Below, piece after piece: positions 1 through 16,953 of a DNA stretch of 16,953 nt. The notes below the pieces were generated by a model. The model saw nothing but the letters and a program-made list of their open reading frames with translations, searched no databases and was not told the DNA's origin. The stretch lies in NCBI GenBank assembly GCA_020216655.1, contig JAIWNU010000131.1:1-16953 (forward strand), read 5' to 3'. Each line of letters begins with the position of its first letter. The first letter of the stretch is position 1. The stretch comes from Treponema sp. (GTDB taxonomy: Bacteria > Spirochaetota > Spirochaetia > Treponematales > Breznakiellaceae). The translations under genes and the position numbers were made by a program.

Positions 1-738
1 AAGCTGGGGTTCCCAGAGGCTAAAAGAACGCTGTGTTTTTACCGGCGGCCCCGCATACCAGCCCGTTCCCACTAACGTAGGACCTGCCCCTGGGCCTTCA
101 ATTTCCCGGCTGATTTCTTCTACCAATCGGTCTGTAAGGCCTGCCCATCCATACATAATGCCGGCCCTAATGGATTCGGCGGTATTTTTTCTTTTTGCTT
201 GTTCAGGTTCTTCCAGCTTTACCTGGGGAATCTGGGCGGCCCGGAGCCGAAGGTCCGATGCAGCCGCTTCGAGTCCTGGGGCCAGGGCCACGCCGACCAG
301 ATCTCCCCGGCTGTCCAGGGCGGTAAAGGAAAGGGTAGTAGCAAAATCGATAATGATACAGGGGACCTGTACCAAGGTGCTGGCTGCCACCGCATTGCAG
401 ACCAGATCTGAACCCACTTCTGCGGGGTTATCTGTCCTGATTCTAAGCCCCGTCTTTATGCCTGGGCCGACTACAAGACAAGCTGTCCCCTGGGGAAGAA
501 AGCGTTCCAGCACCTCAGTAAAAATACCAGTCCAGGCAGGCACCACCGATGATAGTATACCCTGGGTAATTCCTTTTAAGGGGATACCCCGTTCAGCAAA
601 AAGGGACCGGATTAAAAACGCCCATTCATCAGCCGAACGGTCCGCTGCGGATAGCCGGATAATTGCCTGCCATTGGCCATCCGCGGAAACAAGTCCCACA
701 GAGACTCCGCCATTCCGTACATCCGCAGCAAGTATCAT
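1..738 (-). CDS. coaX: CoaX-family protein (type III pantothenate kinase-like), 3' end cut by window
   Basis: Type III pantothenate kinase phosphorylates pantothenate, the first step of coenzyme A synthesis, in the cytoplasm. I translated this frame by hand: 246 residues without a stop, running off the left edge; the family is about 250-265 residues, so little is missing. Family landmarks are visible: an N-terminal MILAADVRNGG in the phosphate-loop position, NPAEVGSDLVCNAVAA (about 104-119), IIIDFATTLSF (128-138), ALAPGLE (151-157) and NTAESIRAGIMYGWAGLTD. The three acidic residues D6, D111 and D131 are kept. However, DxGNT is DVRNG, GxDR is GSDL, DFGTA is DFATT, and the late TGG is TGW. It may therefore be a weak or repurposed CoaX (Baf-like regulators exist in this family). 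The ATG at 738 has GGAGGAA (745-751) six bases upstream, inside the end of ecfS, so translation is probably coupled. Confidence 0.85.
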   Translation of the reverse strand, partial: MILAADVRNGGVSVGLVSADGQWQAIIRLSAADRSADEWAFLIRSLFAERGIPLKGITQGILSSVVPAWTGIFTEVLERFLPQGTACLVVGPGIKTGLRIRTDNPAEVGSDLVCNAVAASTLVQVPCIIIDFATTLSFTALDSRGDLVGVALAPGLEAAASDLRLRAAQIPQVKLEEPEQAKRKNTAESIRAGIMYGWAGLTDRLVEEISREIEGPGAGPTLVGTGWYAGPPVKTQRSFSLWEPQL

Positions 739-741
739 TCC

Positions 742-1362
742 CTATTCCTCCAATTTAGAAAGCTTTGCCTTTCCCAAACTATTGCCGATACCGGTATACA
801 CCGAGACTACAATCAAGGTAATGACCGCAGACACAGCCGCTTCTACCGGACCGTTGCCGATAGCCACCGTAAAAATGAGGGACCAGGGGAAAAATCCGAA
901 GATCCCAAGGGCCGAAAGCACAAGAATCGTATTGGTAAGACTGCCTCCGAGACCCGCAGCAATAAGAGATGCGGAATAGCGAACCGGGTGTATCTTTGGC
1001 TTATCTAGACCAGCGGAAGAGGTGGCAAAACGCCCTGCTATCAGTCGATACAAGAGCCATGAGACGGGTCCAATAAGAAGGCGGGGAACCACCGAGATAA
1101 ATGGATTAGTAAAGGCCACATCCACTGGCCCCGTAGGAGCTATCGCAGCCTGCAAGAGGCTGGAGAGTCCAAACAAGAGACCAATCACAAAACCAACCAG
1201 GGGCCCTTCCAAAACAGCGCCGACAATGACGGGCACCTGGAGAATTGTCACTGAGGCCCCAGAAAACCAAGGGATAAACCCGAGCCGGGTAACCCCCAAC
1301 ACAATAGCAATTGCGGATAGAACTCCTGCTACCGCAATTTTACGAACCGGTAGGACTGCCAT
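742..1362 (-). CDS. ECF transporter S component (vitamin-binding membrane subunit, possibly pantothenate)
   Basis: 206-residue, very hydrophobic protein with about six membrane segments and the layout of small ECF S subunits (PF12822-like): a first helix AVAGVLSAIAIVLGVTRLGFIPW, then ASVTILQVPVIVGAVLEGPLVG and a glycine-rich FVIGLLFGLSSLL. S subunits bind a vitamin or metal and dock on the ECF A/A'/T module, which is encoded just upstream on the same strand. I chose the ATG at 1362 because GGAGG (1370-1374) lies seven bases upstream; the longer reading from 1425 has no ribosome site. The stop at 742-744 is three bases before the coaX start. Substrate is inferred only from this linkage: pantothenate (PanT-like) is the first guess, with other vitamins possible. 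Confidence 0.85.
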   Translation of the reverse strand: MAVLPVRKIAVAGVLSAIAIVLGVTRLGFIPWFSGASVTILQVPVIVGAVLEGPLVGFVIGLLFGLSSLLQAAIAPTGPVDVAFTNPFISVVPRLLIGPVSWLLYRLIAGRFATSSAGLDKPKIHPVRYSASLIAAGLGGSLTNTILVLSALGIFGFFPWSLIFTVAIGNGPVEAAVSAVITLIVVSVYTGIGNSLGKAKLSKLEE

Positions 1363-1369
1363 AGGCTTG

Positions 1370-1374
1370 CCTCC
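1370..1374 (-). promoter_or_regulatory. Ribosome binding site of the ecfS gene
   Basis: GGAGG on the minus strand, seven bases before the ATG at 1362. It decides the start against the upstream in-frame ATG at 1425, which would add 21 residues and has no such site. Confidence 0.8.
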
Positions 1375-1436
1375 AAAATAAAAAATAAAAGCTCCACAAA
1401 GAAGCCTTGTTTTCTCAAAAAACATCGGTCCGAAAT

Positions 1437-4112
1437 TTATTTCCGCAGCATATCGGTACGGCGGGCCGAAAAGAGCCGCAGCTCCATAGCGGTTGCCAGT
1501 ACTTCGGAGCGTTCGAGCGCCCTGAGGAACAATGGAACCACCAACACAATGCCGGCCCGCATCTTGTTCTGGCCATGGTATCCGCCACCTCGAGATAGCT
1601 GGCCTATTACAATCCGTTCAGCCTCTTCCACTAAAAGAGGAACAAAGCGCAGGGCAATACCAAAGATGAGCATGAAGTCCTGAATGGGAAGCCCCCGCTT
1701 TCCTAATGGGGCCAGCAGCCCTTTGACCGCTCTAATGCTTTCTACCATGGGAGTAACCGCAGAGTACAAAGCCAAAAGAGCCATAAGAGCAGCAAGCCGG
1801 CTTATCAACATCAACACATTGGTCATTTTTTGGACCGAAAGTACAATAAAGCCCCATTGCCACAGAACCTGGCTCGTATCCTGGGACCAGGGAAACAATA
1901 CCTGGACCAGCACCATAAATAAAATATAGAGAGCCGCAGGCACAAGGCCCCGGAGCAAATGTTTGGGACCGACATTGCCGAGTGTCTTTCCGACCAGCAA
2001 TATTACTCCGAGCATAACCAGCGAAAAATGCCAGGCAGGCACGAGAATTACCGCAAACAGAATGATAATCGTTGCAGCCAGCTTGAGTCCCGCACTCAGG
2101 TTCCGAAGAACGGAAGGTATATCGATAAAGAGACCCAGATTTACATTGCGGAAAAACTCTATCCCCGTGGTTCTACGCTGTCTCTGGGGCTGGCAGAGCG
2201 GCTTCATATTGATGAGTTGTGCTGGAGAGGTGGAACTGCTTGCTGTCTCTGCGGTGGAAAGGGACCCAAGTACCGAATCAATACCGGAAGCAGTAAGGGC
2301 TGTCTTGCCCGGGAAAAGGCCAGGCATTCCCAAAGCTGTCTCCAGCCCACGGCAAAAACGGACAGTCCAGGGCTGAAACAATTTCCATTCAGGGCTCCAC
2401 TGATGAATAAATACCTCTTCCGGACTGCCCAGGGCGACTAATTTCCCTTCGTATAAAACACCCACAAGATCATGGGTACAGGCGTCTTCCATAGAATGGG
2501 TACTGGAAATGACGGTCTTTCCCTGCTGCTTTAACTGGCTAATAAGTTCCGCAACCCGGGCCTGCCCTTCACCGTCCAGTGCAGCCACAGGCTCATCAAG
2601 CAGGAAAAGCTCTCCTTCCAGGGCCAGGACACCGGCTAAGGCAAGCCGGCGTTTTTCCCCGCCCGAAAGCTGCCGCACCAGCCTGTCCCGGTACTTATCG
2701 TAGGGGAGCCCCACCATTTCCATGGCCCGGCGTACCCGTTCCACCAAAGCTTTACCCGTTAGTCCCGAATTCCTCGGACCATAGGCAACCTCGTCGGCCA
2801 CATAGGTCTCGAATTGGGCACTTTCTGGGTTTTGGACCGCCAGAACGGCCCGACGCCGGAGGGTGCGCAGATCAATGGTTGCATCGCGGGTATTCTGCCC
2901 TAAGACTGCAACCTGTCCGCTTGTCGGGAGGAGAATAGCGTTGAGGTGTCTGAGCAGGGTCGACTTGCCCGATCCAGAGGGGCCAATGAGGGCCAGATTG
3001 CACCCCCGGGGGAGGGCAAAGGTAATGTCCTCGAGGCCGGCGGCTGCAAAAGCTGTACCGGCTAAGTAGGTATGATGCACATTCTGGCACTGCACGGCAC
3101 AATCATGGTCCATAGTGCCGTACGCCATCTGAGGAGTCACAGCCTGATGACTTGCCGGCCCCGTTCCCGTCTCATCATCGGCAGCTGCTCTGCGCTGAGA
3201 AATAGCAGCAAGATCAGGTTTCTTTTGGGCAGTAAGATAGGCTGCAAAAGATGCAGCTACAGCCTCAGCCTGCAACGTAAGGGGCTCAAAATCAGGGAAA
3301 CGCCGGCGCAAGCGTCGGACCGTTTCCAAAGCTGAGTTAATGCGGAAGCCCCAGCGTTCAAGTTCCGGATGAACAAAAAGCTCCTGGGGGCTACCGTTAA
3401 ACACAAGCCGGCCCTGATGCAATACGATGCAGCGCTGGGCCCGGCTCGCTTCCTCAATATTATGGGTAATATGCAGTATCGTCTTGCCCTGCCGCCAGAG
3501 CTCGTCCAGCAAATCCATCAGCGCATGACGGCTTCCTTCGTCGAGCATAGAGGCAGCCTCATCCAGGGCAAGCACAGGCGTCTCCATGGCGAGTACCCCC
3601 GCCAATGCAAGGCGCTGCCGCTCGCCGCCTGAAAGAAACTGGGGCGGCCGGGCCCTGAGCCTCTGGAGCCCCGTATCCTGAAGAGCCTTATTCAAGCGAC
3701 GGTTCCGTTCCTCTGGGGGAAGGCCCTGATTTTCAGGACCAAAGGCAACATCCTCTTCCACCACAGTGCCGACTATCTGATCGTCTGGATTCTGGAGCAG
3801 GGTACCAATTATTTGTCGAATGGGGTAAATATCCTCAGGCCGGGCTGGGTCCAGCGGACCATCACCATAAATCGTAACCTGTCCCGCTTCGGGAATACAG
3901 AGACCATTAATACATTTTATGAGGGTACTTTTACCGGAACCATTAGCTCCAAGAATGGCTACATATTCACCATCCAAAATTGTAAAGGACACATGTTGTA
4001 GTGCTGCCGCAGATTCGGCTGGCACATACGCATATTGATAGGAGAGGTCTCGCAGAACGATACGGGCCTTGCCGTTCTCTGCCAAACAATCCAGGGGGCT
4101 CAGTGTATTCAT
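1437..4112 (-). CDS. Fused ECF transporter energising module: ABC ATPase - ABC ATPase - EcfT
   Basis: 891 residues combining the three parts that are usually separate (EcfA, EcfA', EcfT). First ATPase (about 17-255): Walker A GANGSGKST 55-63, Q-loop Q107, LSGGE 160-164, Walker B with D184/E185, switch H217. A linker of about 80 residues follows. Second ATPase (about 342-575): Walker A GPSGSGKST 377-385, Q427, LSGGE 482-486, LFLLDEP 502-508, H539. A low-complexity Ser/Thr linker leads to an EcfT/CbiQ-type membrane domain (about 650-891) with several membrane helices and coupling motifs SRGG (840-843) and AMELRLF (875-881). The second motif lacks the usual Ala-Arg-Gly core. ATP hydrolysis here would drive vitamin uptake by the S subunit encoded next. 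GGAG precedes the ATG at 4112. It is the first gene of the minus-strand operon; 74 bases separate it from ecfS. Confidence 0.92.
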   Translation of the reverse strand: MNTLSPLDCLAENGKARIVLRDLSYQYAYVPAESAAALQHVSFTILDGEYVAILGANGSGKSTLIKCINGLCIPEAGQVTIYGDGPLDPARPEDIYPIRQIIGTLLQNPDDQIVGTVVEEDVAFGPENQGLPPEERNRRLNKALQDTGLQRLRARPPQFLSGGERQRLALAGVLAMETPVLALDEAASMLDEGSRHALMDLLDELWRQGKTILHITHNIEEASRAQRCIVLHQGRLVFNGSPQELFVHPELERWGFRINSALETVRRLRRRFPDFEPLTLQAEAVAASFAAYLTAQKKPDLAAISQRRAAADDETGTGPASHQAVTPQMAYGTMDHDCAVQCQNVHHTYLAGTAFAAAGLEDITFALPRGCNLALIGPSGSGKSTLLRHLNAILLPTSGQVAVLGQNTRDATIDLRTLRRRAVLAVQNPESAQFETYVADEVAYGPRNSGLTGKALVERVRRAMEMVGLPYDKYRDRLVRQLSGGEKRRLALAGVLALEGELFLLDEPVAALDGEGQARVAELISQLKQQGKTVISSTHSMEDACTHDLVGVLYEGKLVALGSPEEVFIHQWSPEWKLFQPWTVRFCRGLETALGMPGLFPGKTALTASGIDSVLGSLSTAETASSSTSPAQLINMKPLCQPQRQRRTTGIEFFRNVNLGLFIDIPSVLRNLSAGLKLAATIIILFAVILVPAWHFSLVMLGVILLVGKTLGNVGPKHLLRGLVPAALYILFMVLVQVLFPWSQDTSQVLWQWGFIVLSVQKMTNVLMLISRLAALMALLALYSAVTPMVESIRAVKGLLAPLGKRGLPIQDFMLIFGIALRFVPLLVEEAERIVIGQLSRGGGYHGQNKMRAGIVLVVPLFLRALERSEVLATAMELRLFSARRTDMLRK

Positions 4113-5436: not shown

Positions 5437-5447
5437 ACGGAGTTTTA

Positions 5448-5476
5448 CTGACAATATTGTAGATTTTGGATATAAT
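5448..5476 (+). promoter_or_regulatory. Near-consensus sigma-70-type promoter of the HDOD gene
   Basis: CTGACA (5448-5453), a 17-base spacer, then a perfect TATAAT (5471-5476). The expected transcription start, about seven bases after the -10 box, falls at 5483-5484, on or next to the A of the ATG at 5484. This implies a leaderless or nearly leaderless message and rules out the in-frame TTG at 5466, which lies upstream of the -10 box. Confidence 0.75.
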
Positions 5477-5483
5477 TAAAAGC

Positions 5484-6338
5484 ATGGAACAAGTTGATTA
5501 CCTGAAGGGACTTAAAAATCTGCCCATCAATCCTGCTATTTCATCTAAAGTTCTAGAAATGATAGAAAAGCAGGAATTCAGTTTTAAACACCTCGAAAGC
5601 TTAATCAGTGCGGATCCCGGACTGACCACAAAGATACTGCGTATTGCTAATTCGGCCCTCTATGCCCGGCAAAACAAAATTACTAAACTGCAAACCGCCA
5701 TCAGCATGCTGGGGCTTACTACAATTAAAAATCTGGTTATTCTCGTTACCGGTACGAGTCTTTTTAAGCAATATACTGGTTCTTGGTTCTATAAGTTGTT
5801 CTGGCACCATTCTTTGGACACAGCCTTTATAGCAAAAGACATGGCCAACACCTGCGGTCTGCAAGACCAGACAGAAGAACTATTTATTGCTGGACTTCTG
5901 CATAATGTGGGACAGATTCCCCTCTATCTTCACAAGCCAGAAACCTATGATAGTCTGGTAAAACAGGTTATTCAGGAAGGCCGGCGGTTCAGCGAACTTG
6001 AACAGCAGGTCTACAGGACTAATCACCGAGAATTGGGGGGCTTATTGCTCACCCAATGGAGTTTTCCATCCCTATTCTGCGATTGCGCTCGTGAGCATGG
6101 AAACATTAATATTACGTCGAGCTGGAAAAAACAGATTCTTATTGTTTCCAATGCATCCTTTATTGCATCCAACTGGTCTTATTTCGAAAAAAATCCTAAG
6201 GATTATCAACTGCTCGAAGGCCAGCTCCGCCAGCTGGGCCGGGACATCCAGCATATCCGCATGTATGAAGCGCAATACAGGACTGTCCTCGCCCAGGATC
6301 CTTTCTACAAGGAATGCAAAGAGCTTATTAGGGAATAA
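5484..6338 (+). CDS. HDOD domain protein
   Basis: 284 residues. The HDOD domain fills most of the chain: LKGLKNLPINPAISSKVLEMIEK at the start, ISADPGLTTKILRIANSALYARQNKITKLQTAISMLG, then WHHSLDTAFIAKDMA and the degenerate HD site GLLHNVGQIPL, where the metal-binding Asp is Asn. HDOD proteins are thought to be non-enzymatic signalling or scaffold modules, often tied to cyclic-nucleotide signalling and motility; no partner domain is fused here. I chose the ATG at 5484 rather than the TTG at 5466 because a strong promoter lies between and upstream of them. No Shine-Dalgarno sequence is visible. The 3' end overlaps the convergent pelB-like gene by 11 bases, with no terminator in between. Confidence 0.88.
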   Translation: MEQVDYLKGLKNLPINPAISSKVLEMIEKQEFSFKHLESLISADPGLTTKILRIANSALYARQNKITKLQTAISMLGLTTIKNLVILVTGTSLFKQYTGSWFYKLFWHHSLDTAFIAKDMANTCGLQDQTEELFIAGLLHNVGQIPLYLHKPETYDSLVKQVIQEGRRFSELEQQVYRTNHRELGGLLLTQWSFPSLFCDCAREHGNINITSSWKKQILIVSNASFIASNWSYFEKNPKDYQLLEGQLRQLGRDIQHIRMYEAQYRTVLAQDPFYKECKELIRE

Positions 6339-9300
6339 TATAATCTGCCAAACGAATGGCTCCGCCTATCTCAAGGGAATAGGCCCAATAGGTCTCACCA
6401 GTTCTGTTTCCACCCACAGCAAGGTAGAGGCTAAGATTCTTTCGAACCCCTTCCAGACGGACAGCCCCATCAAAAAGTACTGCGCCTGTTGAGCCTACCG
6501 AGGCAAACCATCCCGACCAAAGACGGCCAGCCCCCGTTACAATCCAATTAGTACCGTTTACCAGTTGTACTGAAAGATTTAATCCACCCTTCAGCATAAG
6601 AGCCTGATCTGGAGCATAGTAATCTGTTATATTTTTGCTTTTTTCAGAATTTTCCCATGATCCAAAGGCACCGACATCCAGTAAAATCTGCGGTTTTGCC
6701 ATAAGCAGATTCTGAATATGCAGTTCGCCCTTTCCGCTATAAATCATGTTGGTTTGATCAGCGAAATAGGGACAAAAGATATACCGGTAAGATCCATCGG
6801 TCTGTACACTAAAACTTCTAAAAAACTGCCGGTTCGGATAATCAAGGAATAGCTGTATCGAAGCTCCTGCCTGGTGTTCATACTGGGCAAGACGATCTGC
6901 AAAAAAGGTATCTTTAATCTGATGAAATCCATAGGTGGTCCCCATATTGATTGGTCCAGCTTGCCATAAGAGACCGCCGCCAAGCTGTGGAGCTACTGCT
7001 GCATAATCAGAGATAAGATCCATATTAAAATCAGCTACTGCGGGAGGAATAATATTGTCCAATTTGTTCTGTAAATTACCACCAAGTTCTCCGTATACAG
7101 TAAGCCCCAGAGGTGCGATTTTCACCGGCAATCTAAAGGACAAACTATGCAAGGTAAGAGATTGGGTGGCTGCTTGGGGAGCATGTATTTTTATATGATC
7201 CAGTGTATACACGCTCGACAATTCAGCAAAACTGGAAAGAGGGGCTTGGTATGCCATACGAACAGTATGAGCAGATCGGTTTGAATCGATTAGACTCGAA
7301 ATTCCAGTTTGAAACAGCTGCCCATGTTGGGCGGAAAGGGTATTGTAACTGCCAGCAGCATTTTCATAGCGGGGATTCATTTCATAAACCCGCTTATACA
7401 TGGCAAGGGCTCCCATCCAGTCCCCGCTCTGTTCTTTTGCCCTGGCCAAGGCAAAGAGGGATGCAATATCACTGGGATTCAGTACAAGAACCCTTTCCAA
7501 GATCTTTGCGGCTTGTACAGGCTGGCCAAGACGCAGGTACAGATCTGCGAGAGCCTGGCGGTCCCATTGTGTTTCGGTATCATATTGATACATGCGTACC
7601 CGCAGACGCAGTGCGGCCTGTCGCAATAGAACATTTTGGGCGGTCTGAATTTGACCTGCCAGCTGCCCTCCCTGTATTTTAACATCCTGCAATTTTCGAA
7701 TCGTATCTTCCGCATCTGTGGTAGTAAAATCAGTAAACACTACATCCGTTGGTTCCTGCGGAGACAAGCCTTTGTATACATTTTGAAGTTCTATTCCGTA
7801 GGGATAATATGTATCCGAAGAAAAAAGAGTTTCATCAATAAGCTGTTGTTTCCACAACAGAGCTTGGCGTACGACCTTTTTAGTGTTTTCGAGCTGGATA
7901 TCATTCAACGAAGGAATAACAAGGGGCATACCTTCCAAAAGCTGAATCCGGAGGATCCCATGCTGTGCCAGAGGATTGGTTTTTGCAAGGCTAGTTAAAA
8001 ATGCTAAATCGTCTGCGATAGGCCAAGCCCAAGGTTTAACTGAATTGAGCACTTCCGCATCCTGTGAAATCTGAGCTGCGCTGGCGTTAACCTGTTCTGT
8101 ATATCCTTGCACACGGGGAATCAAAAAAGTATCTGCCCATTTTACAACCGCTGTGGAAAGAGCGACCTCACGGGCTAGCTGTGTCCGTGCATCCTGCAAG
8201 ACAGCCTGTGCCTTTTCACGTTTTGAGACGTCGGTGCTTTTCTGTGCTTGAACATCCTGAACCATTGCCTGTTTCAGGTTTTCCTGAGCCTTTTTTATTG
8301 CCCCTATCCGGCTGTCCGCCAAAGCCGGGAGACTAGTTGCAGTAGGCTTGAGCAGTTGGAGCAAATCCATAAGTCTATACACATCTTTTAAATCCGCATC
8401 TAAACCGAGCAGTATGGAATACAGTTTATTAACCAATATATTCTGGTTCTCTAAGAGGGCATCATTAAGTTTTCCGTTCCAGCTGTAGGCCCGAACCAAT
8501 TCCATCCGCAAATCCAAGTTATCTGGTTCTTTAGCCAATCTTTGCCGGTATTGCTCAAGCACCTGTTCTTTAAGGACAGATTCCTGATCTAGAAGGGTTA
8601 AAACAGCAGAAAGAGCATCCGAAGGTTCATACAGTTCTGAAATTTGCTTACGGATTTCTGCAGCCTTGTCATTTTGGTTGGTTTTATTATACGTGCGAAC
8701 AAGCCTAAGGTACATTTCTATCTGTTCAGGATGCTCCTTAGCCCCTTCCAAATAAGCGCTGATCGCCTTATCTGGATACCCGCTGATATCATAAATCGAT
8801 CCCAAACTAAGTATCTGTTGCGGTTCTGTTTTTACACTCTGCCAAAGCTCTGCAAGCTTACGTTCCCCCTCCCGAACCTTACTCTCCCAGAGAAGGGTGA
8901 GAGCATAATTAACTTTTAGATTTAAGTCATCGGGATACTTAGCAATCGCTTGACGGTATAAATCTTCTGCATCCTGGTATTTCATAAGCCAGGCGCAAAT
9001 TTTGGCTGCCTCAGCCCAGACTTCCCGGTCAGCATCAGGAGATTTAAGATATTCCTTATAAAGTCGAATACCTTCATCAATTTCACCGCTCCAGATCCTG
9101 CTTTTCGCTGCAAGCAGAGTAAAACGGCTATCCTCTCCAGCCATCACCCTTCCACGGGACAAGGTTTTAATCGCACTACCATGATCGCCAATGAGGCTGT
9201 ATACCTGGGCGAGCAATAGATAACCATCTTTATTTTTAGGATTTTGCTGAATGGCATATTCATATTGAGGAATTGTTAAGTATGGATTGTCAATTTTACG

Positions 9301-9930
9301 ATTTGCGAGATCTATCGGAAACTTGTTTGGAACCAGGGTGCGCTCAACAGGTCCTTTTGCAAGCGGTGAATCCTTGCTTAACAGAAAAAAAGCATCTAAA
9401 AAGAAATAATAGCGAGAGTCATAGCGACGCTGTTCAGAAACCTCAAAGCGTATGGTATGAATGCCTGCAGATAAAGTGAGTGCCTGTTTAAGTACAAACC
9501 AGTGGTTAGTATTGGAATATTTTTCTACTACTTCCACCTGTTCTCGGTGTATAGAAAGGGGACTGCCTCCGTCTACTCTAATGTTTAAAGGAGATACAAA
9601 GGATGCCAACAAATCACTTTCCGGCCCAGGAGGGGTACCCCCAATCCACAAGTTCCAGGTACCGGCTTTAGGTACCACAAAGGTATACTCGGCGTAAAAA
9701 GGTGCCCCTTTAGCAGTCCCCTCGCGATTGAGCTGCAGCATACGGTAGCCGCTCGAAGCATAATCCAACGTAGCCTGGTCGGTCATATTCGTGGTAACCG
9801 CGTCTTCCGCCTCCATCCAGACAAGACCTTCTGGCTGAGGAACAAAGACTGGCTTTAGCTTTTGGGAAGTTTCCGCAAATGCATTTAATCCTAGCAATCC
9901 AGCGAAGATGGATACAAAAATACGCTTCAT
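6328..9930 (-). CDS. PelB-like exopolysaccharide export protein with N-terminal carbohydrate-binding-like domain
   Basis: 1200 residues, close to the length of Pseudomonas PelB, the TPR plus beta-barrel protein that exports Pel across the outer membrane. A signal peptide (MKRIFVSIFAGLLGLNAFA, cleavage near 19) is followed by a jelly-roll-like domain at about 30-190, beginning VWMEAEDAV and ending YYFFLDAFFLL, that resembles CBM6/CBM35-type sugar-binding modules. TPR-like repeats fill about 215-500 (for example DAEDLYRQAIAKYPDDLNLK), a long helical, partly coiled-coil insert spans 505-780, one more TPR group lies at 785-865, and the last 320 residues are rich in alternating beta strands, fitting an outer-membrane barrel. 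The ATG at 9930 is chosen for AAGGAGA (9937-9943) six bases upstream and because it starts the signal peptide. It is divergent from pelD by 32 bases. The assignment rests on architecture and neighbours, not on close sequence recognition. The C-terminus ends in YIIP rather than a typical terminal aromatic. Confidence 0.75.
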   Translation of the reverse strand: MKRIFVSIFAGLLGLNAFAETSQKLKPVFVPQPEGLVWMEAEDAVTTNMTDQATLDYASSGYRMLQLNREGTAKGAPFYAEYTFVVPKAGTWNLWIGGTPPGPESDLLASFVSPLNIRVDGGSPLSIHREQVEVVEKYSNTNHWFVLKQALTLSAGIHTIRFEVSEQRRYDSRYYFFLDAFFLLSKDSPLAKGPVERTLVPNKFPIDLANRKIDNPYLTIPQYEYAIQQNPKNKDGYLLLAQVYSLIGDHGSAIKTLSRGRVMAGEDSRFTLLAAKSRIWSGEIDEGIRLYKEYLKSPDADREVWAEAAKICAWLMKYQDAEDLYRQAIAKYPDDLNLKVNYALTLLWESKVREGERKLAELWQSVKTEPQQILSLGSIYDISGYPDKAISAYLEGAKEHPEQIEMYLRLVRTYNKTNQNDKAAEIRKQISELYEPSDALSAVLTLLDQESVLKEQVLEQYRQRLAKEPDNLDLRMELVRAYSWNGKLNDALLENQNILVNKLYSILLGLDADLKDVYRLMDLLQLLKPTATSLPALADSRIGAIKKAQENLKQAMVQDVQAQKSTDVSKREKAQAVLQDARTQLAREVALSTAVVKWADTFLIPRVQGYTEQVNASAAQISQDAEVLNSVKPWAWPIADDLAFLTSLAKTNPLAQHGILRIQLLEGMPLVIPSLNDIQLENTKKVVRQALLWKQQLIDETLFSSDTYYPYGIELQNVYKGLSPQEPTDVVFTDFTTTDAEDTIRKLQDVKIQGGQLAGQIQTAQNVLLRQAALRLRVRMYQYDTETQWDRQALADLYLRLGQPVQAAKILERVLVLNPSDIASLFALARAKEQSGDWMGALAMYKRVYEMNPRYENAAGSYNTLSAQHGQLFQTGISSLIDSNRSAHTVRMAYQAPLSSFAELSSVYTLDHIKIHAPQAATQSLTLHSLSFRLPVKIAPLGLTVYGELGGNLQNKLDNIIPPAVADFNMDLISDYAAVAPQLGGGLLWQAGPINMGTTYGFHQIKDTFFADRLAQYEHQAGASIQLFLDYPNRQFFRSFSVQTDGSYRYIFCPYFADQTNMIYSGKGELHIQNLLMAKPQILLDVGAFGSWENSEKSKNITDYYAPDQALMLKGGLNLSVQLVNGTNWIVTGAGRLWSGWFASVGSTGAVLFDGAVRLEGVRKNLSLYLAVGGNRTGETYWAYSLEIGGAIRLADYIIP

Positions 9931-9962
9931 GGATTTTCTCCTTGTTTCCGAATATAGTATAT
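9931..9962. promoter_or_regulatory. Very short divergent intergenic region between pelB-like and pelD-like genes
   Basis: Only 32 bases separate the two divergent starts. It holds the ribosome site of the pelB-like gene (AAGGAGA on the minus strand, 9937-9943) and an AT-rich block reading TATAGT (9953-9958) on the plus strand and TATACT/TATATT on the minus strand, possible -10 boxes for both directions. No convincing -35 boxes are seen, and promoter parts must extend into the coding ends. No Shine-Dalgarno sequence precedes the pelD ATG. Confidence 0.4.
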
Positions 9963-11387
9963 ATGAATTCTGCAAAAAAGAGACCTATTAAAATAAGAGT
10001 TTTTGTAGAAATTACACTTTTTTCATCCATACCGGTACTCATTGATCTGGCATTACAGGGGGAACTGCTTCGCCAGGCTTTATTTGTACCCTTTTATTCG
10101 ATTATATTTGTTCTCTTTTTTAGTTTTTATAATTTTATACCCGCCTTTATAGGGGTAATTTTAGCGACAACAGAAGGAGTCGCCCTTTCCCTTTATTATA
10201 TCAAAACTGCGAACATTACTAAGGAAACTGTATTTACCGCATCAACCTTCCATGTTCTGCTTGCGGGACTTATTTTCTGCATACTGGCAGCTTTTGTCCG
10301 TAACCGGGTTCTTATAGGAAGGAAACGTTTTTTAGAACGTTACAAACAGGCAGTACATCGGGTGGCAATCCTTGAAAAACGAATTAGTATTCTAGAGCGT
10401 GTACATGAGGTTCTAGAAAACCGGGTATCGAGTCAAAAGGATTCTATTACGCTGCTCCACGACCGGGTAAAAAAACTAGCATCTCTGAACCTGGATGAAG
10501 CATTAAATACCATTCTAGACACTATTGCCCTATTTACCGAAATGAGCGTCGGTGAAATTTGGCGTCTCAACGAAGAACAGAATCTGCTGGTGCCCGCAGC
10601 GGTATATGGGTGGTCTACTGAAACAACTCAATCCGCAAGCCGTTCACTGGAAGGAACCATAGAAGGCTATGTTTTCCGTAACAAACAGCCTTTTTCAGTA
10701 CGGATGCTTTTGAACAGCGCTGAATTTGACCGCTTTGATACACGACTGAACATACTTACCATTCCGATTACGATAAGCGGAAAGGCATGGGGAGTTTTGA
10801 ATATACAAAAGCTCCCCTTTGAACATTATTCCCAATACACCGAATCAATCTTAGAGATTCTATTAAGTCTTGCGGAACCTTATCTGCGGCATATCGTAGA
10901 GTACGAACAGCTGCAAAACCAGCAGGAGCTAGATTCCATTACTGGATACCCTCTTTTTACCCTTTTATATAAAAATTTGGAAGACGACATCGAAAGAACC
11001 AAATACGAGGGTGGCAGCGTTTCGCTTATCATTATGGAAATAGTAAATTTTGATGAATTAGAACTCCACATAGACCGTAACCAGTTACGAAGACTGCCAT
11101 TTGAACTTAAGGAGATGATTGATCAGACAAAACGGATTAAATCTAAAGCTTTTCATTATAAAGATGACAACCAGATTGCCCTGCTTGTATACGGGCTCGA
11201 TCATGACGGCGCGTCTTTCTTCTGCCTCGATGTCCTTGCTCTTCTTTCCGGTTATACTTTTTCGGCTAATTCACAGAACTATCCTGTGGAGCTTATTCTG
11301 GGTTTCAGCACCGCCACCAATGCAAATGTTTCAGTAGACAGCATGGTAGCCGAAGCGGAGCATCTCCTTTCGGTACAGCGTTTGTAG
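9963..11387 (+). CDS. pelD: PelD-like inner-membrane regulator (4 TM, coiled coil, GAF, degenerate GGDEF)
   Basis: 474 residues in the order known for PelD, the c-di-GMP receptor of the Pel synthase complex: about four membrane helices (about 12-113), a coiled-coil stalk (about 125-172), a GAF domain (about 175-310) and a degenerate GGDEF domain (about 322-470, starting DSITGYPLF). The GGDEF signature position reads KDDNQ (400-404), so no cyclase activity is expected. In my alignment the inhibitory-site RxxD lies at R391-S394 (RIKS): the Arg is kept but the Asp is lost, so c-di-GMP binding is doubtful. The ATG at 9963 is preferred; an in-frame ATG at 9879 would lie inside the divergent gene. 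No ribosome site precedes it. It is the first gene of the pelDEFG operon; the next gene starts nine bases after its stop. Confidence 0.85.
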   Translation: MNSAKKRPIKIRVFVEITLFSSIPVLIDLALQGELLRQALFVPFYSIIFVLFFSFYNFIPAFIGVILATTEGVALSLYYIKTANITKETVFTASTFHVLLAGLIFCILAAFVRNRVLIGRKRFLERYKQAVHRVAILEKRISILERVHEVLENRVSSQKDSITLLHDRVKKLASLNLDEALNTILDTIALFTEMSVGEIWRLNEEQNLLVPAAVYGWSTETTQSASRSLEGTIEGYVFRNKQPFSVRMLLNSAEFDRFDTRLNILTIPITISGKAWGVLNIQKLPFEHYSQYTESILEILLSLAEPYLRHIVEYEQLQNQQELDSITGYPLFTLLYKNLEDDIERTKYEGGSVSLIIMEIVNFDELELHIDRNQLRRLPFELKEMIDQTKRIKSKAFHYKDDNQIALLVYGLDHDGASFFCLDVLALLSGYTFSANSQNYPVELILGFSTATNANVSVDSMVAEAEHLLSVQRL

Positions 11388-11396
11388 GAGTACCTT

Positions 11397-12146
11397 ATGC
11401 AGAATTTCCGGAACCTGTTTATCTCCAAAACTGGTTTTGTCCCCCGGACTCAAGCCCAAGCGCTCAAAGCTTACATGGAAGATATTATAGGACCTGAATA
11501 TTATATTTATCGGGCCGTTAATGTGCATCCGCTGCTCGAAGAACCCTGGGATTTTTCGGAAATTGACCGTTTGCTCGCCAAAAAAGACTTAGACCTAGAG
11601 ACCATTACTATCCTGGTAACCATCTTTGATAAAATGCTTCAGCTCCCCGATAAAGAACAGGCGTTATTTGCAGCAGAAAGTATTAATGCCCTGGAACAGC
11701 GGTACCTCAGCACTATCATAGCGATGCATAAAGAATTGGAAATGGAGGAAAAGACCGAATCGGTACGGACTATTATGCAGGCATACCTGAGCCTTGCCGC
11801 CATTAGTAAAAAACGGCCGCTTTTAAGAACCTTTTATCTCGGCGAAGCAAAAGCAACTTTTAAAAAATTGAGGCACATCCTCATCGATCCAGATAAAGAT
11901 CTTGCCTTATATATAAAAATACTGTTTGATCTGAACCAGTTAGCGGAAGCAAGACAAGAAATTGTAATGAGCATAGAACAATACCCAAGAAACACCACCC
12001 TGCACTTGCTTGCTGCAGAATATAACTTTAAAATCGGTTCTTATAAAAATATCGGTAAATATTTGAACCAAATCACGCATCTTTTCAAGAACAGCAAAGA
12101 TGCTGAACTCATAAAGTTCTGGGGAATAGGAGTTCAGAATGGATAA
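11397..12146 (+). CDS. pelE: PelE-like helical repeat protein
   Basis: 249 residues, mainly alpha-helical with TPR-like segments (for example LNQLAEARQEIVMSIEQYPRNTTLHLLAAEYNFKIGSYKN near 180-225). I see no signal peptide and no membrane segment, unlike Pseudomonas PelE, which has N-terminal membrane helices, so this would be a cytoplasmic or peripheral partner. The name rests mainly on position between pelD and pelF and on TPR character; sequence recognition alone would not support it. AGGAG (11386-11390) lies six bases before the ATG. Its end overlaps the pelF start by eight bases (ATGGATAA), so translation is probably coupled. Confidence 0.65.
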   Translation: MQNFRNLFISKTGFVPRTQAQALKAYMEDIIGPEYYIYRAVNVHPLLEEPWDFSEIDRLLAKKDLDLETITILVTIFDKMLQLPDKEQALFAAESINALEQRYLSTIIAMHKELEMEEKTESVRTIMQAYLSLAAISKKRPLLRTFYLGEAKATFKKLRHILIDPDKDLALYIKILFDLNQLAEARQEIVMSIEQYPRNTTLHLLAAEYNFKIGSYKNIGKYLNQITHLFKNSKDAELIKFWGIGVQNG

Positions 12147-13563
12147 GCCCATCCGGGTGTGCATGGTACTGGAAGGTTCCTATCCGTTCATTACCGGCGG
12201 GGTCGCAGCCTGGGTTCAGGATATTATCCAAGGCTTGCCGGAGATCGAGTTTTCCCTCCTGACCTTTTCTCCCCAGGCGAACCAGAAACTCCGTTACACC
12301 TTACCGCCAAATGTAAAAGAACATGTGGATTTAGTCTTAAGCGATGCCCCCCGTAAAAATGCAGGAAAGCGGCCAAAAAAACGTTCTATAGCAGCGGTCC
12401 TGCAATTTCACCAGCATATGTTCGAAAATAAGGTAGTCGATTTTAACGCTCTTATCGGAGCTCCCAAGAGATTAGAAGAGTTTGATAATGGGCTACTCAG
12501 AGATAAGAACCTCTGGAACCTTCTGGTACAATCCAACCTGCGTAAAAATCCTGCCTACCCATTTTCCGACTATTTCTGGGCATGGCAGTCTTCCCACCGG
12601 CTGCTTTTTAACACCCTGCAAGCCAAGGCTCCCGAAGCAGATATTTACCATGCTATATCAACTGGTTTTGCAGGTCTTGCAAGTTTAGTAGCAAGCCGGA
12701 AACGCAATAAGCCCTTTTTACTTACCGAACATGGCCTTTATCATAAGGAACGGGAAATCGAGATTAGAAAGGCCGACTTTGTCCGCGGCTACCAGCGGGA
12801 TATGTGGATAAACATTTATAATAACCTGAGCAAAATTTGCTACCAATCCGCCGACGTCGTTACCGCTCTTTTTGAAGAGAACCGCCAGAAACAAATAGAA
12901 CTGGGAGCAGACCCTACAAAATGTCTTGTCATACCGAATGGCATTGATATTGAACGATTCTCGTCGGTGGAACGCAAAAAGAAGCCAGGTTTTCATGTAG
13001 GACTCGTTGGCCGGATTGTCTCTATAAAGGATGTAAAAACCTACATTGCGGTAGCTAAAATTGTGCTCGAACAAATTCCCGAAGCCACATTCTATGCAAT
13101 AGGCCCAACCGACGAGGAACCAGAATATTACCGGGAATGCGTAGCCATGGTGGAAAGTTTTCATATCCAGGATCGCTTTATCTTTACCGGCAGGCAGAAT
13201 GTCTTAGAATATTATGCATTCCTAGATCTCATGCTCCTTACCAGCGTACGGGAAGCCCAGCCCTTAGTCATTTTGGAAGGCTGGGTAGCCGGTGTCCCCT
13301 GCATTAGCACCAAGGTTGGAAACGCTCCGGAAATGCTCGATTACGACGAACGTTTTTTAGCACCATCTAAAGATCCTGAGAAATTGGCAAAAAACGTCAT
13401 GTATGTGTATCAGCATCCAGAACTTATGAAAGAGATAAACGAACGGAACAAACAAAAGGCTATCAGACTCTATAATAAAAAGGATCTAATTCAGCGGTAC
13501 CGGGATCTATATGCTCAATTGGGCCCTGAAAAATGGAAATCTCGTGCCGGAGAGGTAACCTGA
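12139..13563 (+). CDS. pelF: PelF-like GT4 glycosyltransferase, Pel polysaccharide polymerase
   Basis: 474 residues; PelF is the cytoplasmic GT4 enzyme that builds the Pel chain (UDP-N-acetylhexosamine donor in Pseudomonas). The N-terminal half matches the PelF-specific DUF3492 look: VCMVLEGSYPFITGGVAAWVQDII (8-31), then HAISTGFAGL and LLTEHGLYHKEREIEI (195-210). The C-terminal Rossmann half has VIPNGIDIERF, GLVGRIVSIKD (288-298) with R292 and K297 placed to bind the nucleotide sugar, and the catalytic E-x7-E pair E372/E380 in REAQPLVILEG. All expected key residues are present. AGGAG (12128-12132) precedes the ATG. The stop TGA shares its last base with the pelG start. Confidence 0.95.
   Translation: MDKPIRVCMVLEGSYPFITGGVAAWVQDIIQGLPEIEFSLLTFSPQANQKLRYTLPPNVKEHVDLVLSDAPRKNAGKRPKKRSIAAVLQFHQHMFENKVVDFNALIGAPKRLEEFDNGLLRDKNLWNLLVQSNLRKNPAYPFSDYFWAWQSSHRLLFNTLQAKAPEADIYHAISTGFAGLASLVASRKRNKPFLLTEHGLYHKEREIEIRKADFVRGYQRDMWINIYNNLSKICYQSADVVTALFEENRQKQIELGADPTKCLVIPNGIDIERFSSVERKKKPGFHVGLVGRIVSIKDVKTYIAVAKIVLEQIPEATFYAIGPTDEEPEYYRECVAMVESFHIQDRFIFTGRQNVLEYYAFLDLMLLTSVREAQPLVILEGWVAGVPCISTKVGNAPEMLDYDERFLAPSKDPEKLAKNVMYVYQHPELMKEINERNKQKAIRLYNKKDLIQRYRDLYAQLGPEKWKSRAGEVT
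13549..13555 (+). promoter_or_regulatory. Ribosome binding site of pelG
   Basis: GGAGAGG, seven bases before the ATG at 13563. It decides the start against an in-frame ATG at 13533 inside pelF, which would add ten residues ahead of the conserved MAGIGF beginning. Confidence 0.8.
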
Positions 13564-14951
13564 TGGCAGGCATAGGATTCCAGCTGCGTAAAATTATAAG
13601 CCGGGGCAATTTATACGAAACAATCGGCGCCCTTGTTTCAGGGGTCTTTATCGTTGCAGGGCCCTGGCTTATTTCTGTGGTCGCCATGGCCTTGCTTCAG
13701 GGTTTATTTACCACATTAAAGGTGGAGCATCTCGTTGTTTTTCAGGTCGTCGTTGTCTATAGCTATGCGTTTTCTTTAAGCCTTTTTTCCGCCCTGCACC
13801 ATCATTTTACCCGCATTATCGCTGACCTTGTATGGGAAGGCAGGCATGGTGAGGCTGCCGCATGGATGCTCCGCTTTATTCTCCTTACTGTAGGACTATC
13901 TCTAGTAATTGCAGTCCCCGTTTCGCATATCATACCCCTCCAGATCGGAGAAGCAGAAAACCTGTTTCGCATTGGGATAGCAGCGCTTTTTACGGTCATT
14001 AATATCCTATGGATCATCATGCTGTTTATCTCTTTGCTTAAACAGTATGTGGTTATTCTTATCGTATTTCTGGGCGGTATGGGCATTTCTGTATTCACTG
14101 CTCCCCTTTTAGCTCACCAGTACGGGGTTGCAGGAGCCCTTTTCGGCTATACAGGGGGACTTGCGGTTATTGATATTGTATTTTTAGCCATTGCACTTGT
14201 TAAATACCCACCCCGGAAACCAGAACAGGGTTGGAGAACGTTCTGGCACTACCTTGGCAGATATGGAGCACTTATCGCTTCTGGATTCTTCTTTTATACT
14301 GGACAATGGCTTGATAAAATGTTCTTCTGGTTTTTTCAGGGACAGGCCATACCAGGTATAGGCCTCAAGGTATTTCCTGAATATGACTATGCAGTGTATA
14401 TCGCCGGTCTTTCCATCATTCCAGGACTAGTTTATTTTGTCATCATTGCCGAAACTCAAATATACATTGATACACGGCATTTCCTGTATACCTTGACCCA
14501 TACGCCCTGGACTAAAATACAAATTGCTAAACAACAGCTTCTAAGAAGCCTGAAAGATGAACTGAGAGATCAGAGCCTCCTCCAAGGATTTTGTACTCTA
14601 GGATTCGGTTTTCTCCTGTATATGTACGGTCCAGCATCGATTAAGAATCCGGTCATGGCACTAGCCTTGGCTGCGGCATTTTTCCAATTCACCCTTATGA
14701 CGGTCCTGGTATATCTGTATTATTTTGAATTATACCAGCAAGCCATGATAACAGCCTTGTTCTATTTTCTGCTGAACGGTCCTATTGCAGGAATCATTTA
14801 CTGGTTTATGCCTTTACTACTGCCCGGCGCGGGACACCTTGCAGCCGGCCTACTAGCCTCTTGGCTAGGATACACACTTTTAAAAACAAATACCCGAAAG
14901 ATAGAAAAGATTCTCTTCCTTAGGTCCTTGGGAATGAAAAAAAGCTCTTAA
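13563..14951 (+). CDS. pelG: PelG-like inner-membrane transport protein
   Basis: 462 residues, polytopic with about 12 membrane segments. The start MAGIGFQLRKIISRGNLYETIGALVSGVFIVAGPWLIS is the characteristic PelG opening (MAGIGFxLRK, then a xxSGPWxxS-like helix). PelG is related to MATE/MOP flippases and forms the inner-membrane Pel synthase and transport complex with PelD, PelE and PelF. The conserved middle segment GLKVFPEYDYAVYIAGLSIIPGLVYF (about 269-294) and the charged helix near 310-340 are seen. The start overlaps the pelF stop by one base (TGATG), fitting tight co-translation. It is the last gene of the operon and is followed by a strong hairpin. Confidence 0.93.
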   Translation: MAGIGFQLRKIISRGNLYETIGALVSGVFIVAGPWLISVVAMALLQGLFTTLKVEHLVVFQVVVVYSYAFSLSLFSALHHHFTRIIADLVWEGRHGEAAAWMLRFILLTVGLSLVIAVPVSHIIPLQIGEAENLFRIGIAALFTVINILWIIMLFISLLKQYVVILIVFLGGMGISVFTAPLLAHQYGVAGALFGYTGGLAVIDIVFLAIALVKYPPRKPEQGWRTFWHYLGRYGALIASGFFFYTGQWLDKMFFWFFQGQAIPGIGLKVFPEYDYAVYIAGLSIIPGLVYFVIIAETQIYIDTRHFLYTLTHTPWTKIQIAKQQLLRSLKDELRDQSLLQGFCTLGFGFLLYMYGPASIKNPVMALALAAAFFQFTLMTVLVYLYYFELYQQAMITALFYFLLNGPIAGIIYWFMPLLLPGAGHLAAGLLASWLGYTLLKTNTRKIEKILFLRSLGMKKSS

Positions 14952-14962
14952 TAATTAAATTG

Positions 14963-14986
14963 CCCCTGGGACAAAGGTCCCAGGGG
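14963..14986. terminator. Hairpin between convergent pelG and LamG-lipoprotein genes
   Basis: A perfect 10-bp stem, CCCCTGGGAC and GTCCCAGGGG, with a four-base AAAG loop, starts 12 bases after the pelG stop and ends 8 bases before the stop of the convergent gene. Neither side has a clean run of T, only AT-rich flanks, so it may end transcription in both directions or mainly protect mRNA 3' ends. Confidence 0.65.
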
Positions 14987-14993
14987 ATTAAAA

Positions 14994-16953
14994 CTACCAG
15001 GCTGCGGTTTTTGCCTTATTAGCCTCGTAGAAATTCTTTATTTCCACATCACTCCAGACCCGGTTCTCTATAAGGACGCCGTTAATCTTCCCGTTAAAAC
15101 CGTAGTAGTTATTAAGAAGCTGCGTACTATCAAAGAATTGGGAACCAACTACCACAGGAACCGGTGGGTTTGCAGGGCCTGCAAAGGTGGAGGTCGTCTT
15201 TACATTCTTAAAGCTTCCGCTGTTATTTAAGACCCCGTTAATATAGATTTTCATCTGTTTAGCCGCTAGATCCCAGGTAGCCACGAGGTAATACCAAAGT
15301 CCTGTGTTTAATTTTGTTTTAGCGATAACTAAATCATAGGTATATGGGTTTTGTGCAGCTAGCCCAAAGCCAGGATCATTACCATTGCTCATGAATTGAA
15401 GGGTCCAAATCTCGTCAGAAAAGTTTGTCTTTACCCCCGCATGAACTATACCAGCATATTTAGCAGGTTTTGTAATGTATACCCATGCTTGAATGGTACC
15501 CTTGTTGTAAAAATCGTATACAGTTCCAGTACTCGGAAGCGTCATACCTTGGGCGCCGTTAAAGACCTTAACATCTCCGGTTCCTACAAGGTCACCGGGA
15601 ATATCGTTTGTACTACCAGTGCCGACACTATCTGGAGCTTTTAAAGCACGATAAAATTGCCCCAAGTCTCCAGTTGGATTAACGGTTGTTATACTAAGCG
15701 GCGCAGAATCGCTGGTGGTAACAACCTGGTTGGCAGATTTGTCAAACACAGTACCGCTCGACAGGTTTACAATTGCCGGATCGTTCCCGGAGGGAATCCA
15801 GAACGTGTCATAAGCGCTGGTAATTTGAGCGGCCTCGTTGTTAATGAGGGTTACGTAGTTATCCTGCTGGGTAGCAATGTTTACTACCCTCGTTTTTGCC
15901 CGGGTGTCCCGGGTAGCGGAGTTATAATCTACCGTATAGGTTGAGGGTCCCGAATAAGAGGAAAGTTTATAAGTCGTCTGCTGGCGAACCACCGTGAGGG
16001 CAAGGAAAGCATTGTCTGTGTTCGCGGCTAAATCCGGAAGGAAGAGGGACGAATAGGTATTCAAGAAGTTGCCACTTTCATTTTTAGTACTTGTAATAGC
16101 TTTCTCGAACACAAGGGTCGTTCCTACGAGCTGACTATGGTCAGCGCTTACCTTTTCCGTATAGTACCGGATACCGACAATTGCCTGGGCGCGGTTCCCT
16201 TTCCAGAAGCTGTAAGAGGGAGTATCGTTAAAGTTGCGGGTATACACAACCACCGAGGCATAGGCTGCGTTGGTGTCGGTCTGGGGTACAAAGGCACCGG
16301 GGTAATCAAGACTGCCATTAATGTCAAAGGGAGCAAAGGCATTATGGCCATCATACCGCTTTACATCCACAATAACTTCGTCCTGGTAGCTCCCATCCCG
16401 GTAATAGAGCCGATTCCGGTTTCTGAACTTGGAATCAGCAGTACCGTCAGCTTTTACAACAATATCCGCATTAGTCCACCTACCTAAAGCAGCGGGAGAA
16501 CCGTCGGGATTATCGAGTATATAATACCATTCTTCTTGTTTTTCCCGGGGATCATAGGTGGGAAAGGTAGTAAGAACCTGAACGTAATACACGTTAGGTG
16601 TAACTGTCTTGGTAATCGTCCAGGAGCTGGTTTGCCCTACCTCGGGGTAATTGGACTGGGACCCGGTAACCGTTGCACCAACCGTGGTTGGAAGCGTGAT
16701 CGCAGTACTTGAGTCTACCGGAACCGTAGCTCGGGCAAGAGTGGAATCGACACCTTTATTAAAGGGAACTAAAGCCTTGCCCGATTGGGCAAAGGAATTA
16801 TTCAACACATCAAAGGTGGTCATATAGCTGGATCGGAAACTGCCAAGTTCTCCCGACAAATTGAACGTACTCGCGGTTAATGTACAGGACGCAAAGCCGG
16901 ATGCAAGAATCAAGGTTGCAATCACTGCCTGTCCGATCATTAAGCTCGATATA
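14994..16953 (-). CDS. Probable surface lipoprotein with C-terminal LamG-like domain, 5' end cut by window
   Basis: At least 648 residues. The first ATG in the window (16940) gives MIGQAVIATLILASGFASC, a hydrophobic signal with a loose spirochaete lipobox (FASC, Cys19), but the frame stays open upstream (I S S L before this Met) and there is no positive N-terminus, so the true start probably lies beyond the window. The middle is Thr/Ser/Asn-rich and beta-like with no domain I recognise. Residues about 455-640 form a laminin-G-3/concanavalin-like jelly roll: GTIQAWVYITKPAKYAGIV, LNTGLWYYLVATWD, KQMKIYINGVLNNSG and FNGKINGVLIENRVWSDVEIKNFYE. Such domains bind sugars or proteins outside the cell. 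It is convergent with pelG, so a link to the Pel polymer is only suggested by position. Confidence 0.85.
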   Translation of the reverse strand, partial: ISSLMIGQAVIATLILASGFASCTLTASTFNLSGELGSFRSSYMTTFDVLNNSFAQSGKALVPFNKGVDSTLARATVPVDSSTAITLPTTVGATVTGSQSNYPEVGQTSSWTITKTVTPNVYYVQVLTTFPTYDPREKQEEWYYILDNPDGSPAALGRWTNADIVVKADGTADSKFRNRNRLYYRDGSYQDEVIVDVKRYDGHNAFAPFDINGSLDYPGAFVPQTDTNAAYASVVVYTRNFNDTPSYSFWKGNRAQAIVGIRYYTEKVSADHSQLVGTTLVFEKAITSTKNESGNFLNTYSSLFLPDLAANTDNAFLALTVVRQQTTYKLSSYSGPSTYTVDYNSATRDTRAKTRVVNIATQQDNYVTLINNEAAQITSAYDTFWIPSGNDPAIVNLSSGTVFDKSANQVVTTSDSAPLSITTVNPTGDLGQFYRALKAPDSVGTGSTNDIPGDLVGTGDVKVFNGAQGMTLPSTGTVYDFYNKGTIQAWVYITKPAKYAGIVHAGVKTNFSDEIWTLQFMSNGNDPGFGLAAQNPYTYDLVIAKTKLNTGLWYYLVATWDLAAKQMKIYINGVLNNSGSFKNVKTTSTFAGPANPPVPVVVGSQFFDSTQLLNNYYGFNGKINGVLIENRVWSDVEIKNFYEANKAKTAAW

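Follow-up and report, generated by a model that had tools for sequence, protein, structure and literature searches.

Does a spirochaete possess a Pel exopolysaccharide system with an outer-membrane arm of its own, and how closely does such a system follow that of Pseudomonas? The question arises from contig C151 of a Treponema sp. MAG (2.66 Mb, 89.6% complete), analysed here over its whole length of 16,953 nucleotides (the window), in which a sequence-only reading had recognised a Pel-like locus. The observation holds and its interpretation was largely right, yet the locus stands further from Pseudomonas Pel than was then thought; the account was also incomplete, as the locus has no PelA or PelC gene and its PelD has no c-di-GMP I-site. 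It is a genuine Pel variant, found repeatedly in Spirochaetota and equipped with an exporter of its own, and it probably secretes an N-acetylated, neutral polymer under a control other than that of PelD, a reading to which we give a probability of about 0.7. The surprise lies less in the occurrence of Pel in another phylum than in the finding that PelA seems to have been lost naturally, along with changes in PelD and PelE and the linkage of further genes.

The range assigned to Pel in the sequence-only reading (Proteobacteria and some Gram-positive bacteria) was too narrow, since the lineages named in a 2020 survey include Thermotogae, Actinobacteria and Rubrobacteria (PMC7112194), and Fusobacterium nucleatum has genes annotated as pelF/pelG (PMC9848294). 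As for spirochaetes, the main text of PMC7112194 and PMC7112168 contains neither 'spirochaet' nor 'Treponema' (their supplements may hold such a row), and the accessible text of PMC10745434 and PMC9848294 reports no spirochaete Pel. No report of such a system was found among the matches listed in a search covering the titles and abstract starts of open-access papers.

The PelDEFG core and its distribution

All five ORFs proposed earlier are present and intact, with PelD (9963..11387), a PelE-position protein of 249 aa (11397..12146), PelF (12139..13563) and PelG (13563..14951) in canonical order on the forward strand and the exporter (6328..9930) on the reverse strand. The overlap of starts and stops then described applies to two of the three junctions: the PelE and PelF genes overlap by 8 nt and the PelF stop shares one base with the PelG ATG (TGATG), whereas a 9-nt gap separates PelD from PelE. 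There is no room inside the locus for a PelC gene.

Membership of PelF and PelG in the Pel families is supported by profile scores far above curated cut-offs. PelF, a GT4 glycosyltransferase, matches equivalog NF038011 at 340.5 bits (cut-off 100) over profile positions 2–489 of 489; PelG, a membrane transporter that does open with MAGIGF, matches PF16933 at 260.2 bits (cut-off 29) over positions 1–452 of 452. The E-x7-E pair and R/K donor residues attributed to PelF are E372-x7-E380 and R292/K297, identical in 41/41 aligned PelF sequences. In a PelF tree, the one built of the two proposed for PelF and PelG, the spirochaete PelDEFG-type proteins form one clade (100/100 with 26 rows, 100/99 with 30 rows); L067, with only PelF and PelG encoded on its contig, is counted as PelDEFG-type by its place in this tree. 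The spirochaete host, the identity of PelD and the position of PelE are likewise supported. The closest named record is Gracilinema caldarium isolate bin74 (L001), with a PelF 94% identical to that of the window and other genes 83–86% identical, which puts the host close to Gracilinema. Identity to the non-spirochaete PelF of 11 fetched loci is 30–37%.

The set of genes recurs. All 14 named spirochaete loci in which a PelF relative was found also encode PelD, PelE and the exporter, and PelG is absent from L014 alone, where the contig ends. Of 296 spirochaete genomes sampled, 18 gave a PelG match, 17 of these above the cut-off; the match in G250 is weak and falls below it. The distribution is patchy, for G194, a complete genome in one contig from the same genus (3,239,340 bases), gives no PelG match; it has parts of the left flank of the window at 68–79% DNA identity. 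To the left of the cassette, window positions 1–4112 hold a CoaX-like gene and a fused double-ATPase/T-component-like ECF protein of 891 aa, both recognised by eye, and an ECF-transporter S component.

A second, separate PelFG pair, lacking PelD and PelE, is found in some distant spirochaetes (L049–L051, L053 and L055) with an HDOD gene nearby; the HDODs of four of these five loci form a separate clade, and the PelF of L049 carries an in-frame stop.

Exporter, HDOD protein and LamG lipoprotein

The 1,200-aa exporter combines a putative signal peptide (by eye) with three regions in its AlphaFold2 model (pLDDT 86), namely an N-terminal beta-sandwich (9376..9825, mature residues 17–166), a TPR superhelix (7327..9273, residues 201–849, delimited by Pfam TPR families and modelled helices) and a 16-strand beta-barrel (6349..7320, residues 852–1175), all encoded on the reverse strand. 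The barrel expected of this large protein is thus predicted, and TPR repeats plus a 16-strand barrel make up a PelB-like architecture. The closest structural matches are the PgaA, BcsC and PelB exporters; the barrel matches that of PelB (9h80_M), with a likeness to PgaA at least equal to that to PelB. The divergent, PelB-sized exported protein of the sequence-only reading thus has a PelB-type barrel, but direct PelB membership is not supported by sequence: there is no match to the PelB barrel family PF24604, either with the whole exporter at E<=0.01 or with the barrel alone at E<=10. The reach of this profile is itself limited, since it matches the PelB of L023 but misses the PelB-position proteins of L020, L021 and L024.

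The beta-sandwich, with its conserved E-x-E, Trp and Asp, is shared by 12 of 13 further spirochaete exporters (the thirteenth is a fragment) and found in none of three non-spirochaete ones tested. No confident family, CBM included, could be assigned to it: Pfam gives only weak CBM_6 and GH115_C matches (CBM_6 at E 0.024 and 15.4 bits, under the cut-off of 28.9, with 3/19 members matching at E<=0.1), a PDB profile search returned nothing significant, and the structural comparison (VIA rows) barely covers this part of the model. This candidate sugar-binding-like domain caps the exporter. No earlier description of such an architecture was met.

The exporter gene was found in 22 of 29 PelDEFG-type loci, the other seven being five f22-family loci (L057–L061), without an exporter gene found beside pel, and two short contigs. 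Its strand is that of pelDEFG in L063 and L006, and opposite in the window. The whole barrel is net acidic (-2 to -34) in all rows of a 36-row alignment and in 15 spirochaete locus rows. The net charge of the barrel strands is 0 in the window, -10 and -2 in the PelADA-bearing L063 and L012, and -8 to +3 in PelADA-free loci; as a marker of a neutral polymer, barrel charge thus fails to separate the two groups. The exporter relatives of L048 and L050 do not end at the barrel but in FlgD-like/CHU_C-like and OmpA-like domains.

In the window, the exporter gene and pelD point away from each other and their likely start codons lie about 32 bp apart (9931–9962), a tight spacing also seen in several relatives, so any promoters of the two genes must overlap coding sequence. 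The exporter ORF extends to a TTG at 9975, the ATG at 9930 having a good Shine-Dalgarno, and an in-frame ATG at 9879 is a possible upstream start for PelD. Promoter-like and terminator-like sites number 18 and 11 against shuffle means of 17.8 and 10.3, and no claim is made for either kind for that reason; the terminator-like sites include a hairpin of 10 pairs (14963..14986, reverse strand) between the convergent pelG and LamG genes.

The genes flanking this core on either side belong to the same recurring cassette. On the left, convergent with the exporter gene and overlapping it by 11 nt, lies the gene of a 290-aa HDOD protein (5466..6338, forward strand; PF08668, E 3.7e-52), a putative dedicated regulator. 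An HDOD gene is present in the fetched stretch of 22 of the 29 PelDEFG-type loci, although the genome of the window has just four HDOD matches. A single clade (99/98), of 20 rows plus one duplicate, unites the HDODs linked to PelDEFG-type loci and stands apart from the other paralogues sampled in six genomes, two 'other' rows (L085 and L101) being the same genes as pel-linked rows; the pel-less G194 has the two other full-length HDODs and none of the pel type. The gene is missing from the fetched stretch of L001, L006, L013, L014, L054, L056 and L062. In five of these a contig end lies at or inside the cassette; the exceptions are L013 and L056, which have no HDOD beside pel despite sufficient room. 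For L006, L013 and L014, HDOD relatives are found elsewhere in the genome, on separate contigs, and the genome of L001 has only paralogue-like ones. HDOD proteins can bind c-di-GMP, as described for SadB (Kd 0.23 uM), a protein that also has a second candidate domain (PMC6543031). The HDOD protein may have taken over c-di-GMP control from PelD.

On the right, a putative surface lipoprotein (14994..16940, reverse strand) displays a lipobox-type Cys, an N-terminal beta region of unknown type and a C-terminal LamG/pentraxin-like lectin fold. Of 18 other loci, 11 have a linked relative; none was found in L004, L005, L010, L012, L014, L063 and L064.

PelADA, PelD and PelE

The deacetylase of spirochaetal Pel is of the DUF2194 (PF09960) type. 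DUF2194 can be equated by sequence with the PelADA family: at the PelADA position, a Clostridium pel locus encodes a DUF2194 protein (481.7 bits) that resembles the L063 protein (27% identity, E 8e-37). The latter also matches PDB 9zau (E 5.6e-48), whose length leads us to take it for the PelADA of B. cereus described in PMC13254593, the structure title not saying so. Outside the clade of the window, DUF2194 is present in 13 of 14 pel-bearing spirochaete genomes (11 distant ones, G256 and that of L012), the 14th, G047, being a PelG carrier without PF09960 at 88% completeness; in L063, L048, L051 and L012 the protein lies in or near the pel cluster. A weaker PF09960 match occurs in G225, a genome without PelG.

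Within the clade, DUF2194 was detected in none of 17 genomes (L001–L011, L013 and L014, which are 13 of the 14 spirochaete genomes searched, plus G000, G063, G169 and G271), and the genome of the window yields neither PF09960 nor PF03537, GH114 being absent. The 17 PelADA-free PelF sequences are united in a single clade (94/97; 92% of 200 bootstrap trees). PelADA was thus likely lost once, which falls short of proof because the uniting branch lies just under the starred level. With PelADA lost, the exported polymer would probably be mostly N-acetylated and neutral. Deacetylase activity is described as necessary for Pel in P. aeruginosa (PMC10269871) and in B. cereus (PMC13254593), so a PelADA-free system may work differently or use another esterase. 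As presented in PMC12345266, Pel of S. intermedius, which like that of B. cereus has a PelADA, is suggested to be predominantly GalNAc and neutral even though its locus holds the enzyme.

PelD retains its domain order of four TM helices predicted by hydropathy, a GAF domain (E 7e-8) and a degenerate GGDEF domain. A 25-row PelD profile reaches the PelD crystal structures 4euv/4dmz (E 2e-4 to 4.5e-4), ranked below many GGDEF/GAF structures, whereas a single-sequence PDB search matched no PelD structure. The RxxD c-di-GMP I-site is found in register in 0/27 spirochaete sequences (RIKS in the window), two having it out of register. Its loss is not unique to spirochaetes: RxxD stands at or within one residue of the site in outgroup L018, L021 and L024 and is missing from the near-identical L016 and L020, two of five outgroup PelD in an alignment that omits L022 and L025 as not PelD and takes L018 and L021 by position only. 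The host likely contains c-di-GMP, given 13 GGDEF matches in its genome, none on the contig of the window.

PelE of the window is identified by position, with no PelE family match and no predicted TM helix. Hydropathy likewise gives no TM helix in 10/10 spirochaete PelE tested, against two to three in all three PelE-position proteins of the outgroup, although two of these three belong to near-identical loci.

Proposed route, rival explanations and known systems

In the mechanism favoured here, PelF would polymerise a nucleotide-activated N-acetylhexosamine, UDP-GalNAc by analogy, and PelG would carry the chain across the inner membrane, while the membrane-anchored PelD and soluble PelE would keep the synthase assembled. 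Once in the periplasm, the chain would be caught by the sugar-binding-like domain of the exporter, guided along the TPR superhelix and released through the barrel. The HDOD protein would probably supply the regulation no longer provided by PelD, and surface retention of the polymer would probably fall to the LamG lipoprotein. A sugar-epimerase-family gene flanks pel in L048 (2240–3187, PF01370), L050 and L052 (both by BLAST), consistent with a supply of UDP-GalNAc. The strictest form of this scheme, in which a spirochaete branch runs Pel without any PelA, exports a fully N-acetylated polymer and has replaced the PelD I-site by a dedicated HDOD protein as the point of c-di-GMP control, is speculative and rather unlikely as a whole.

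Among the alternatives, it is possible, though less likely than not, that a working Pel here still yields a partly deacetylated, cationic polymer, through another carbohydrate esterase encoded elsewhere or a PelADA missed in an incomplete genome. The need for deacetylation in both studied models (PMC13254593, PMC10269871), the 89.6% completeness of the MAG and the acidic barrels speak for it. It fits poorly with a PF09960 that escapes detection in all 17 clade genomes, G063, G169 and G271 being 98–99% complete, and with the absence of GH114 from the genome of the window. Unlikely too is that PelDEFG makes a different, non-Pel polysaccharide or glycoconjugate on a PelF/PelG scaffold, an idea suggested by the low PelF identity to non-spirochaete proteins, the missing PelA and PelC, the altered PelD and PelE and the second PelFG set of some spirochaetes. 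Against it stand a PelF equivalog score 3.4 times the cut-off, the four catalytic/donor residues kept, and relatives outside the clade with PelADA or a flanking epimerase-family gene.

That the TPR/barrel protein is an unrelated porin or adhesin merely neighbouring pel is very improbable: it lies outside the operon in divergent orientation, escapes PF24604 and went undetected next to pel in five loci of the f22 family, but its recurrence in 22/29 loci, its co-orientation with pelDEFG in L063 and L006 and the exopolysaccharide exporters heading its structural matches speak against this reading. Decay of the locus into a remnant is the least credible reading, since the patchy presence, the pel-free G194 and the G296 MFS gene that leads into other genes are set against intact ORFs, a PelF active site constant in 41/41 sequences and a PelF more alike between L001 and the window than their other genes, as expected under purifying selection.

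Seen as a spirochaetal Pel variant, the locus shares with P. aeruginosa pelABCDEFG the PelD-E-F-G order, the PelF GT4 and PelG families, the TM-GAF-GGDEF order of PelD and a TPR plus 16-strand barrel exporter. It departs from it in having no PelA or PelC gene, no RxxD in PelD and no predicted TM helix in PelE, in the divergent exporter with its beta-sandwich, and in the added HDOD and LamG genes; the signal peptide of the exporter appears short, whereas P. aeruginosa PelB may have a TM anchor (PMC12141448). With the Gram-positive pelDEADAFG (Bacillus cereus, Clostridium, Streptococcus), spirochaetes share the PelDEFG core and, where they still have one, the same DUF2194-type deacetylase; they differ by an added outer-membrane exporter and, in the clade of the window, by the undetected PelADA. 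A precedent for divergent PelD control is the streptococcal PelD described as lacking GGDEF (PMC7112168). Thermotogota pel loci (Marinitoga, Thermosipho) are also diderm and non-proteobacterial, with a DUF2194-type protein beside PelG (L018 by Pfam, L022 by alignment), and BLAST of their fetched stretches detected no counterpart of the exporter, HDOD and LamG genes of spirochaetes. The secretins PgaA and BcsC have other synthase partners (PgaCD and BcsA, in place of PelFG) and no N-terminal beta-sandwich.

If the favoured reading is right, Pel is placed across Spirochaetota and its machinery shows more variety among bacteria than has been described; loci that have PelADA and loci that lack it form a natural set for testing the need for deacetylation in export, and two unstudied linked genes, pel-HDOD and the LamG lipoprotein, are named.

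A last observation concerns a near relative, G296 (L113, G296:C40), where the MFS gene that precedes the cassette sits in a block 94.6% identical to the window. The similarity ends directly after the MFS stop codon (window 5437–5465), and genes resembling STAS/anti-sigma modules (by eye) follow instead of the HDOD-pel cassette, a pattern that suggests insertion or relocation of the cassette as one block.
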